In this document: piece by piece, positions 49,801 to 54,229 of the stretch
How the letters are laid out: every line of letters begins with the position of its first letter
How positions within the stretch are numbered: position 1 is the first letter of the stretch
Assembly: GCA_037974965.1 (NCBI GenBank)
Contig: JBBPFI010000009.1
Coordinates: 186,001 to 250,000, forward strand
Origin: Dacryopinax spathularia
Lineage: Eukaryota > Basidiomycota > Dacrymycetes > Dacrymycetales > Dacrymycetaceae
Direction of reading: 5' to 3'
Length of the DNA stretch: 64,000 nt
Translations under genes and position numbers: made by a program
The notes under the pieces: generated by a model
Databases searched by the model: none
What the model was told of the DNA's origin: nothing
The model's input: the letters and a program-made list of their open reading frames with translations, nothing else

Positions 49801-50013
49801 CTTCCGTGTGTGGCTGTGCTGTTGACCCCGTCCAATTTGGTGGTGGCTGTGCTGTTCCTTTGTCGGAGGCAGAGCGGTTGACGCGGAACAGTGGACCCTA
49901 GGTCATCCTTGCTCCGCGCCGGAACTTCGAAGGATGATGGGTTGAGGAAGGTTACTGCCCGGATGCGGTAGACCTGCTCAATGGGCCCCCTTCCAGGAGA
50001 ACTTAGCTCTGAA
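49801..50013. other. GC-rich junction segment, unidentified
   Basis: GC content rises again at about 49800. The minus strand is open across this segment but the frame shows no recognisable domain. It ends exactly where similarity to the OTU gene begins. Confidence 0.3.
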
Positions 50014-50771
50014 GAACAGACCGCCATCATGCTGCCCTGCGCCAGGAGATCTGTGATTGACTGGCTGGCCATCCGGAGCGGTACCGAGGCTTTGTAGACG
50101 ACGACCGTACTCTAGAGGACCATGTTGCCGTCATGAGGCAGCTAGGCACGTATGGCGGTCACCTGGAGCTATCTGCCTTTGCCCATTGCTTCCAACGCGA
50201 TGTCAAGGTTGTGCAGCCTGGCCTGGTCTACGTCATCTCCTGCGCTGCTCCGCCGTCTCCGATCAAGTCACACCCGTCCACCTTGAGCATGCCTTCCGAG
50301 GGGAATGAGAGAGAGGCCCGGAGGTTGAAGAGAGAGGCGGCAAGAAAGACGGCTGAAGACGCTCGTTTGAGCTCGATACCCCCTTCAGGTGTGAAAGCGA
50401 CGACAACACCCGTCTACGTTGCGTATCACGATTGGGAGCATTATTCATCCTTGAGAAACGTCGACGGGCCCTCGCTTGACCCAGTCATCGCACGCGAGCA
50501 ATCCCTCCCACGATTTGAAGCTTAGAGCGTTGGATAAAGCCCACTCGCGTGACCGAGAGAGTCCATCCGGGGATCTCTCCTTCAAGGAACTTGTCATTTG
50601 AATCCTCTGAAGTTCCCCTTGTCGCCACTATTCTATACGCATTTTCCTTCCTTCGCACGTCGCATTATCCCGCAACCCTCTCAAGTCAAGGCGCACGCGT
50701 CTCATATACGCCTAGATTACCCCCGTTGCTCGAGTATCAATTCTACCGTTTCCCTTCCTGTCTGGAAGCCG
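50014..50771 (+). pseudogene. Truncated inverted copy of the OTU deubiquitinase gene
   Basis: From 50014 to about 50771 the sequence is nearly identical to the reverse strand of 53903-52739, the third exon and 3' flank of the intact OTU gene. The copy lacks exons 1 and 2, which hold the start codon and the catalytic Cys. After IAREQSLPR it has lost about 410 bases relative to the parent, which shifts the frame and gives an early stop (FEA then TAG). The frame 50133-50525 is therefore a remnant. Similarity continues past the parent's stop codon for about 170 bases, so the duplication copied genomic DNA and not a spliced transcript. The high identity points to a recent event. It could still be transcribed antisense to the parent. 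Confidence 0.9.
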
Positions 50772-50895: not shown

Positions 50896-52551
50896 ATGGC
50901 TGAGAATGTCAGGAAACGTGAGCTTAGTTCATATGGCTTATTAGACGGACAGTGCTGGTTGATCACATATCACAGCTCTCCCTTTCCACTACCAGTTTAT
51001 CGCTGGTGCCATCGCGGGTGAGCGCGGCCCAGACGCGTCGACTTAGTTGCCCACTGGCACTGACCCTTGGCAGGTGTCAGCGAAATCCTAACATTCTATC
51101 CCCTTGGTACGCCGTGTTCTCATCATTAATCAGCCGCGGCTCTGACTACAGGGAAGATGTGGTGCGTTTCTACTTCATTATCTCAGTCCGGCGGATAAAA
51201 TCGAACCTACCATAGGTGAAAACACGACTTCAACTGCAATCTGGTAAAGCGGAAGCTGGGGTGGTCGGCACCCTGCGAAACATCGTCGTTCGGGAAGGGT
51301 GTGTCGGCTTTCCCGAAAGAGGGTGGAGTGCTAGGCTCATTTATTGTGCAAGGTTCTGGAGATTGTATCGCGGATTACTTCCACCGCTCCTTCTTGAGGC
51401 GCCGAAGCGTGCTGTCAAATGTCCGTTACCTTTCTGATTTCTTCTATGCGTGCTTACAAGCGAGACAGTTGGTGCCAATGACTTCTGGGGAAAGGTCTGG
51501 CCCCTAGTGTTTACGCTTTACATAGCTCATCTTTCAGAGCAGACGTTATTGTCTCTTTCCGGAACAGGGCAAATGACCCAGCAGCTCTCGATACTGACAG
51601 GCGCGGCGGCCGGAGCGACCGAGTCCATCGTCGTAGGCTCAGCGTCGCAGGGGAGGTCACTTCGGACATTAATACCCTCCAACAGGTAGTTCCTTTCGAA
51701 TTGATCAAGATTAAGTGAGTCCGCCAAAATCCCGGTCTTCCGTCACCTTACCCCGTTCGATAGACTTCAGGACAAGTCCAGCACGTTCAAGGGTCCGGCG
51801 GACGCCCTCACCCAGATTGTCAAGCGGGAGGGTATCCTGGGCATCTACACGGGCATGGAATCGACTTTCTGGCGGTTCGCTGGATGAGATGCTACCTTAT
51901 GCGTCGCTAATCTTACCTCGCAGTCACCTTGTGTGGAATGCCGGCTACTTCGGGTATGTTGTATACGCACCCTATGAATCGTTCTTATACTTCTTTTTAG
52001 CTCCATCTTCAAAATCCGCGCCATGCTGCCTACAGCACAGGTACTCTCCTCCGCTCAGTCCCGCTAAACTCCGCCTGACCCGTGGCAAGACAGCCCAGGG
52101 TAAACTCATGAATGATCTTACAGCCGGCACTGTCGGTACGTGTCTGCAAAGGAAAGCGGGGTATCCGTGCTAATACGAGCATAGGGGGATTCATTGGCAC
52201 TGTCCTCAACACGCCGTTTGACGTCCGCAAGCACCTTTCTCGGCCGCCTGTTGCTCACATCTTCGCAGGTTGTCAAGAGCCGAATTCAAGGCGCAACGAA
52301 AACTGTGGGGGTTGTACCTAAATATAACTGGGCTATTCCGAGCCTGGTTGTAGTGGCCAAAGAAGAAGGTTTCTTTGCCTTATACAAAGGGTTCGTACCG
52401 AAGGTGTTGCGGTTGGCTCCTGGAGGAGGTGTTCTGCTCCTCGGTGAGTTTGACTTCCCCAAGCCATTGCTAACAATGACTCTCACATGTTACAGTGGTG
52501 GAATTCACGCTTAATACGTTTAGACAAATGCTGGGTCCTCCATACATATAG
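50896..52551 (+). CDS. ODC2: Mitochondrial 2-oxodicarboxylate carrier
   Basis: This mitochondrial inner-membrane carrier exchanges oxoadipate and oxoglutarate, linking lysine metabolism with the matrix. It belongs to the three-repeat carrier family. Repeat 1: FIAGAIAGVSEILTFYPLDV then VKTRLQLQSG; repeat 2: VVPFELIKIKLQDKSSTF, REGILGIYTGMESTFWR; repeat 3: TPFDVVKSRIQG and ALYKGFVPKVLRLAPGGGVL. Also visible are FWRLYRGLLPPLLLEAPKRAVKF and GANDFWGK, typical of the ODC branch. The last exon ends QMLGPPYI at 52549-52551. At least ten short introns occur. The first PxDxxK signature can be joined only through a 5-nt exon, ATGTG, at 51157-51161 between introns 51107-51156 and 51162-51215. The gene looks intact and lies between the arms of the OTU inverted duplication. 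Whether it is ODC1- or ODC2-like cannot be told. Confidence 0.9.
51157..51161 (+). other. Probable 5-nt microexon of the carrier gene
   Basis: The upstream exon ends CCC CTT G at 51106 before GTACGC, and the downstream exon starts GTG AAA ACA CGA at 51216. Inserting ATGTG, bounded by AG on the left and GTGCGT on the right, restores P-L-D-V-V-K-T-R, the carrier signature, in frame. The two flanking introns would be 50 and 54 nt, normal for this genome. Without it the frame and the essential Asp are lost. Confidence 0.8.
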
Positions 52552-52914
52552 CTGCGGACTGGGGAGAATATAAGCGGACGGTGGGCCCCTCATGCAACGT
52601 ATTTGCATCGCACAGTTCTTGGCGAGCCTGCACAAGTCACACCGCAGATGAGCTAATAGTGGCCACATGCGCGCTAATGTGCAAAACCATTCCCTTATCT
52701 CAGTTGTAACCCCGCAGTACAGTACGCAGGTTGCGGCTAGATGGCTTCCCAGACAGGAAGGGAAACGGTAGAATTGATACTCGAGCAACGGGGGTAACCT
52801 AAGCGTACATGAGACGCGTGCGCCTTGACTTGAGAGGGTTGCGGGATAATGCGACGTGCGAAGGAAGGAAGAAATGCGTATAGAACAGTGGCGACAAGGG
52901 GAACTTCAGAGGAT

Positions 52915-54229
52915 TCAGATGACAAGTTCTTTGAAAGAGAGATCCCCGGATGGACTCTCTCGGTCACGCGGGTGGGCTTTATCCAGCGCTCTAAACTTCT
53001 GCCTGACCAAAACCGCGCGGCTGCCCCTCACGCGACCAACAGCTCGTCGTTCCTTTCGGCTGAGTTTCTTCTTGAGAACGGACTCAACGTCGGCGACATC
53101 ATCGGTCGATAGGGCAGATCTGACCGCCTTCCTTGCTCGCGGATTATCGTCCAAATCCATCGCGATGTCGTCAGACATTTCGCTGGCACTGCGCTTGGGT
53201 GAGTTCGACGTGGGAGGGGTAGATGCATCTGTGGGGGTCCCCGTTGACGAGATGAATGTGGAAGCCGAGTTGGAGGGCGATGGGTCGCGGTACGCTTGAA
53301 AGTGCGGTGGCGACGGGGGGAGAGGGATGCGATGAGGGGGAAGAGGATGTTTTCGTGGGCGACCACGGGGCCGGGGGAGGACGGGCGCAGGCGAAAGCGC
53401 AGATCGTGGGAGGGATTGCTCGCGTGCGATGACTGGGTCAAGCGAGGGCCCGTCGACGTTTCTCAAGGATGAATAATGCTCCCAATCGTGATACGCAACG
53501 TAGACGGGTGTTGTCGTCGCTTTCACACCTGAAGGGGGTATCGAGCTCAAACGAGCGTCTTCAGCCGTCTTTCTTGCCGCCTCTCTCTTCAACCTCCGGG
53601 CCTCTCTCTCATTCCCCTCGGAAGGCATGCTCAAGGTGGACGGGTGTGACTTGATCGGAGACGGCGGAGCAGCGCAGGAGATGACGTAGACCAGGCCAGG
53701 CTGCACAACCTTGACATCGCGTTGGAAGCAATGGGCAAAGGCAGATAGCTCCAGGTGACCGCCATACGTGCCTAGCTGCCTCATGACGGCAACATGGTCC
53801 TCTAGAGTACGGTCGTCGTCTACGAAGCCTTGGTACCGCTCCGGGTGGCCAACCAACCAATCACAGATCTCCTGGCGCAGGGCAGCATGATGGCGGTCTG
53901 TTCCGTAGATCTACAGACATCGCAAACGTGGGTTAGCGAACGGGCGAAAGAGTGGAATTGGTCGCGTGGGGCAGCGCACTTGGTCCGATAACGCGCGGAA
54001 AAGGCAATTCCCGTCGCCCTCTGTGGGCACGACTCTAAGCCCCATCGACTTGAGCTGGGCGTCTAAGTGCCGGGAAGACTGGTCGACATCGGACACCAGG
54101 CGAGGCTTCCGCCCTCTCGCTGGTTACGCACGAGCGCCGTCAGAATGTGTTTGCACCGACGTGGGGGGATTGGGATAGCTCACTGTTTGGTGGATGCTTG
54201 ACGATGCGCCGCTTCTCTGACCTCGCCAT
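52915..54229 (-). CDS. OTU-family deubiquitinase (OTUD3-like)
   Basis: OTU cysteine proteases remove ubiquitin. Three exons fit in phase: 54229-54184, 54119-53980 and 53910-52915, giving 393 residues. The first exon encodes MARSEKRRIVKHPPN. The catalytic centre is complete: D-G-N-C in PTEGDGNCLFRALSDQ (about residues 46-61) and the His in YVAYHDWEHYSSLRN. Between them are DRHHAALRQEICDWL and GGHLELSAFAHCFQRDVKVV, typical of the fold. A basic coiled segment (EREARRLKREAARKTAEDAR) is inserted before the His region. The tail is Pro/Ser-rich with an AT-hook-like PRPRGRPRKHP and a final basic region KKKLSRKERRAVGR, suggesting nuclear or nucleolar location. A broken inverted copy lies at 50014-50771. 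Confidence 0.9.

Follow-up and report, generated by a model that had tools for sequence, protein, structure and literature searches.

A probable 5-nt coding microexon within the first signature motif of an ODC-type mitochondrial carrier gene of Dacryopinax spathularia

Exons of only a few nucleotides are documented in plants, where small microexons of 1–15 nt include 1-nt exons in APC11 and VPS55 and, in rice, one of 5 nt; as reported there, they have RNA-seq and partly RT-PCR support, and the 1-nt ones are conserved across species (PMC8831610). Among fungi, the shortest P450 exon given for the basidiomycete Phanerochaete chrysosporium measures 6 bp (PMC1184071), and the Xlr2 gene of Trichoderma virens has a microexon whose inclusion depends on glucose, in a report whose authors call fungal microexon work limited (PMC11121469). 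Two Cryptococcus papers, in the passages that mention microexons, do so merely as a read-aligner setting (PMC3990503, PMC8022950). The described stwintrons, in turn, are two tightly packed short introns that are removed by consecutive reactions and leave no exon (PMC7138796).

The exon considered here, ATGTG, lies in a window of 64,000 nucleotides (the whole stretch of DNA that was analysed) from the basidiomycete D. spathularia, and shares features with each of these systems as they are described in the reports cited. Like the plant microexons (PMC8831610), it is very short, has a length not divisible by three, is required by a conserved protein and belongs to a kind that often goes unannotated; unlike them, it is predicted from the sequence of one genome. 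Its gene resembles the P450 genes of P. chrysosporium (PMC1184071) in having many introns of ~45–55 bp and tiny exons, but belongs to another gene family, has an exon of 5 nt, and comes from a genome in which 0 of 88 internal exons in 30 other carrier genes are below 17 nt. The Xlr2 microexon (PMC11121469) is likewise a short exon in a fungal gene, the glucose-dependent inclusion being a feature of Xlr2. As in stwintrons (PMC7138796), two short introns are tightly packed and would be removed in consecutive reactions, but here five coding bases must stay. The original prediction had called exons this short extreme for any organism, which is overstated given the 1-nt and 5-nt exons validated in plants (PMC8831610) and the 6-bp exon reported for P. 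chrysosporium (PMC1184071): ATGTG is a very small example of an already documented kind of exon, and exons of this length are not unprecedented. No earlier description of the ATGTG carrier exon was found in the literature searched, a body that leaves most subscription journals outside its coverage.

The carrier gene and its first-repeat signature

A hand model without stops runs from an ATG at 50896 to a stop codon ending at 52551 and comprises 16 exons and 15 introns, the latter of 46–58 nt in a version of 297 aa. The start of the eighth exon may be placed at 51540 or 51543, giving 298 aa with one 45-nt intron or 297 aa; we used the 298-aa version for Pfam, NCBIfam, structure and own-genome comparisons, and the 297-aa version for frame tests and the Odc2 alignment. 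The elements that concern us are the following.

50896..52551, + strand: ODC-type mitochondrial carrier gene, including start and stop codons
51074..51106, + strand: 33-nt exon ending CCC CTT G, which gives P-L and codon position 1 of the Asp
51107..51156, + strand: 50-nt phase-1 intron, GTACGC...GGGAAG, with donor GTACGC, a branch-like CTGAC, a skipped CAG and the used AAG
51157..51161, + strand: 5-nt microexon ATGTG, codon positions 2 and 3 of the Asp followed by a codon for Val
51162..51215, + strand: 54-nt phase-0 intron, GTGCGT...CCATAG, with donor GTGCGT and acceptor CCATAG
51216..51298, + strand: 83-nt exon starting GTG AAA, the V-K of the signature, followed by TRLQLQ
52223..52268, + strand: intron that separates Asp from Val in the third-repeat signature (PFD/VVK), in both the hand model and the profile search

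Pfam Mito_carr matched the 298-aa protein in three stretches (194.7 bits), and the model contains the P.[DE]..[KR] signatures PLDVVK, PFELIK and PFDVVK. With three Mito_carr repeats and their signatures, the protein is a member of the mitochondrial carrier family (SLC25), and 50896–52551 encodes, by its predicted translation, an intact mitochondrial carrier. The more specific ODC label is likely, resting on an identity of 53% (301 alignment columns) with Saccharomyces cerevisiae Odc2, a figure obtained against an approximate version of the yeast sequence and with Odc2 as the sole carrier so compared. In that alignment YPLDVVKTR pairs with identical letters and without gaps, and the first signature also aligns ungapped to 1okc, the ADP/ATP carrier and the best of the solved structures matched, all of them other carriers. 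NCBIfam models gave zero matches to the 298-aa protein. No second copy of the carrier appeared among the matches listed in the 29.2-Mb genome, the others being at most 39% identical, and a search with a 58-aa exon peptide returned no relatives in bacterial/archaeal genome contigs or viral contigs. Searches for two mating-type families gave no match either, a negative that carries no weight. The intron at 52223–52268 occupies a position in the third repeat that corresponds to a point inside the first-repeat microexon.

Joining the exons across the first signature yields CCC CTT GAT GTG GTG AAA, or P-L-D-V-V-K, with CTTGATGTGGTGAAA as the predicted transcript junction. All the sequence elements named in the original prediction, namely ATGTG with an AG before it, GTGCGT after it and introns of 50 and 54 nt on either side, were located where it had placed them. 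In this model ATGTG shows two marks of a coding microexon, being an internal exon within the usual limit of ~15–30 nt between standard GT-AG splice sites, and being required for the frame and for conserved residues. As to the central proposal, that the first signature of this ODC-type carrier contains a 5-nt microexon, it held as the best-scoring model in the tests that we ran, all of them on genomic sequence. We consider it very probable that ATGTG (51157–51161) is a real and constitutively needed 5-nt coding exon of an intact ODC-type carrier gene.

Splice choices and the spliced-profile search

To see which splicings the stretch allows, those of 51074–51298 were enumerated, allowing GT and GC as donors, AG as acceptor and a minimum intron length of 35 nt, which gave one without an intron, 31 with one intron, 48 with two and 0 with three. 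Reading frames that are continuous and free of stops were confined to the two-intron class (18/48, against 0 without an intron, 0/31 with one and 0 with three), and only two of these 18 carry P.[DE]..[KR] in frame, one with the 5-nt exon (PLDVVK) and one with a 10-nt exon (PLGTPEDVVK). The claim that no other splice choice keeps both frame and Asp was too strong, since GT-AG alternatives with exons of 10 nt (PLGTPEDVVK), 7 nt (PLGTPEDVK) and 2 nt (PLDVK) also do so; among the splicings enumerated, what belongs to the 5-nt exon alone is the normal spacing of the signature, without insertion or deletion. In the N-terminal part of the protein, Pfam Mito_carr scored 77.2 bits with the microexon and 65.7 bits with the four-residue insertion, and found no match if the microexon is skipped.

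Skipping would produce the junction CTTGGTGAAA and a frame that terminates as PLGENTTSTAIW*, retention of intron 51107–51156 would give PLGTPCSHH*, and retention of intron 51162–51215 would give PLDVVRFYFIISVRRIKSNLP*. Each of these events brings a stop no more than 19 codons past P-L, so inclusion of ATGTG would be all-or-none for the full-length carrier. Such early ends, together with the regulated microexon reported for Trichoderma Xlr2 (PMC11121469), are what one would look for if the exon were real but optional and served to switch the carrier on or off by its inclusion. The same effect would follow, however, from mis-splicing at any coding intron that shifts the frame, and the donors and intron sizes are ordinary for this genome, so that we regard optional inclusion as unlikely.

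Independently of the enumeration, the locus was analysed by a home-made spliced dynamic-programming search, with exons allowed down to about one codon, against a profile of 26 carrier repeats from the same genome with ODC left out. The repeats derive from the 30 genes with Mito_carr matches that were used for comparison, and the profile includes the signature, so the search favours models that restore it. ATGTG was called as an exon in 4/4 settings, and again when all AG acceptors were scored equally and the branch term was removed; forbidding the acceptor at 51156 cost 12.3 or 13.4 bits, and forbidding the donor at 51162 cost 11.5. The 88 internal exons of the 30 other carriers mentioned above, the smallest of which is 17 nt, come from the same search, which indicates that on real carriers the method is not prone to calling microexons. 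In the ODC gene itself, four hand-model introns (51421–51468, 51495–51542, 51954–52000 and 52041–52089) came out as two in the default run, which also stopped short of the first exon.

When the inner 97 bases were dinucleotide-shuffled between fixed outer splice sites (n = 4000), 437 shuffles produced an internal exon no longer than 8 nt, so the call of a small exon by itself means little and it is the score that matters. The real score of 44.0 was reached in 1/4000, and the microexon signal exceeds chance. These shuffles also bear on the reading in which faulty assembly, or a disabling change of recent date, has broken the stretch, the apparent microexon rescuing it by chance. The general signature YPL[DE]xx[KR]T was restored by some route in 84/4000 shuffles, and the gene sits between similar inverted duplicates (see below), both of which this reading could claim; against it stand the remainder of the gene, which is open with 16 exons, start, stop and all three repeats, the single shuffle that matched the real score, and two donors that are common forms in this genome. 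A broken stretch is, on this evidence, very unlikely.

Donors, acceptors and branch spacing

Compared with 108 introns from the other carriers, both donors around ATGTG are familiar: GTGCGT, which follows the microexon, is the commonest hexamer (33/108), and GTACGC, which precedes it, the third commonest (14/108). Our scoring gives credit for R at +3, G at +5 and Y at +6 but none for C at +4, and the C at +4 shared by both is for this reason the independent part of the donor evidence. The lengths of 50 and 54 nt are likewise usual, 67/108 comparison introns being 45–60 nt long. At the carrier loci of this genome donors favour C at +4 in general (GTGCGT 33, GTACGT 18 and GTACGC 14 of 108); the usual donors of many fungi are GTAAGT and GTGAGT.

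The acceptor of the 50-nt intron is the less ordinary element, as AAG acceptors are rare (4/108 comparison introns, and 7/104 with neutral scoring), and a CAG precedes it. Measured from the A of CTGAC, this CAG lies at 6 nt and the AAG at 11 nt. In acceptor-neutral models of the 30 carriers, a CTRAY motif occurs no more than 30 nt from the end in 57/104 introns of up to 110 nt; an AG closer than 10 nt to the branch A was used in 0/57 of these and one at 3–9 nt was passed over in 12/57. The scored models gave the same picture (AG under 10 nt used in 0/62, passed over in 13), with the scoring itself favouring such distances. Moreover, AG counts made independently of gene models after 783 CTRAC sites (276,930 bases, both strands) came to 70, 70 and 75 at 11, 12 and 13 nt, compared with 31 at 6 nt, 31–47 at each position from 3 to 10 and 39–63 at each from 14 to 29. 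The choice of AAG at 51156 is thus as predicted from the spacing habit of the genome. The weaker side of the model is the 54-nt intron 51162–51215, in which no YTNAY branch motif was found; 20/108 comparison introns, too, have none at 8–30 nt.

Two further introns of the ODC hand model use AAG, ending at 51352 and 52089. The former is also given by the frame and by the automatic runs; at the latter a later CAG (52098) keeps the frame too, and AAG was picked for its 11-nt spacing and for the match to the yeast length. In intron 51495–51542, too, AGs lie close together, in the order TTTCAG, AG and CAG; the hand model's frame rules out the first CAG, which follows the likely branch A by 8 nt, in agreement with the spacing rule.

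It is by these measures that the 10-nt exon of the enumeration (51152–51161, GGAAGATGTG) can be weighed. It would pair the donor at 51114 with the upstream CAG, adding four residues (P-L-G-T-P-E-D-V-V-K) and giving the junction CTTGGTACGCCGGAAGATGTGGTGAAA, and would require the following intron.

51114..51151, + strand: alternative 38-nt intron, donor GTGTTC, acceptor CAG

This model keeps frame and Asp, takes the CAG that comes first, and is the runner-up path under default scoring once the microexon acceptor is forbidden. Its donor GTGTTC, in contrast, occurs in 1/108 comparison introns and does not have the G at +5 that 101/108 possess (a position rewarded by the scoring), and its AG would follow the branch A by just 6 nt, whereas 0/57 introns use one at under 10 nt. 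Its intron of 38 nt compares with a minimum of 47 nt in 120 modelled introns (one of 38 nt appears in the acceptor-neutral models), and the protein loses 11.5 bits in Pfam and the P-x-D spacing. The probability left to a 10-nt exon is accordingly very small. That no exon is left at all, 51107–51215 being a stwintron (a nested or twin intron, the inner one interrupting a splice element of the outer) excised in two steps, has a negligible probability: twin introns are known in fungi, as described in PMC7138796, but deleting the whole of 51107–51215 shifts the frame to a stop 10 codons past P-L, and an enumeration of two-step splicing that included junction-made sites (GT donors) produced no in-frame signature and zero additional signature solutions.

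Intron removal, annotation and surroundings of the carrier

Returning to the 5-nt exon, we propose that each of its flanking introns, at 50 and 54 nt, would be recognised as a unit by intron definition, in which case the exon itself need not be recognised. From what is established about splicing, the two introns would most likely be removed sequentially, because 5 nt cannot hold the complexes of a 3′ and a 5′ splice site at the same time. In the first intron the A of CTGAC would act as branch point, and the spliceosome would skip the CAG at 6 nt, because this first AG is too near the branch adenosine, and take the AAG at 11 nt. The transcript, which the gene presumably produces, would then include ATGTG constitutively. 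A further idea, that two introns 5 nt apart inside the carrier signature force ordered splicing, the efficiency of which would set the amount of 2-oxodicarboxylate carrier and make the exon a conserved, frame-critical control point, strikes us as quite unlikely.

If correctly read, this is a fungal exon close to the minimum size, and the cause of its odd acceptor, the spacing from branch to AG, can be read from the sequence. Gene finders that impose a lower limit on exon length would lose ATGTG and return a broken or truncated carrier, an error that automatic annotation can easily make. The microexon may serve as a test case for annotation, and also for intron definition where splice sites are 5 nt apart.

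An origin of the two introns by duplication of one found no support: 51107–51156 and 51162–51215 seem similar on inspection, yet a score at least as high is reached by 560 of 5671 intron pairs and by 68/5000 composition shuffles. A DNA search with 51095–51230 listed no second genomic place up to E 10, a result that does not show rarity.

The carrier is flanked by an inverted duplication with arms at 50004–50765 and 52749–53913 that are 95–98% complementary, and a DNA search with the left arm gave no places outside the locus among the matches listed. Each arm contains a related reading frame.

52915..53910, − strand: OTU-like cysteine protease reading frame, right arm (Pfam 29.2 bits)
50061..50525, + strand: shortened OTU-like copy, left arm (Pfam 22.4 bits, under the 23.3 cut-off)

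The left arm is without ~400 nt that are found at 53000–53399. This rearrangement lies ~130 bases upstream of the carrier start codon and has no bearing on the microexon; its arrangement resembles the model in which a small inversion leaves inverted duplicates at both its ends.
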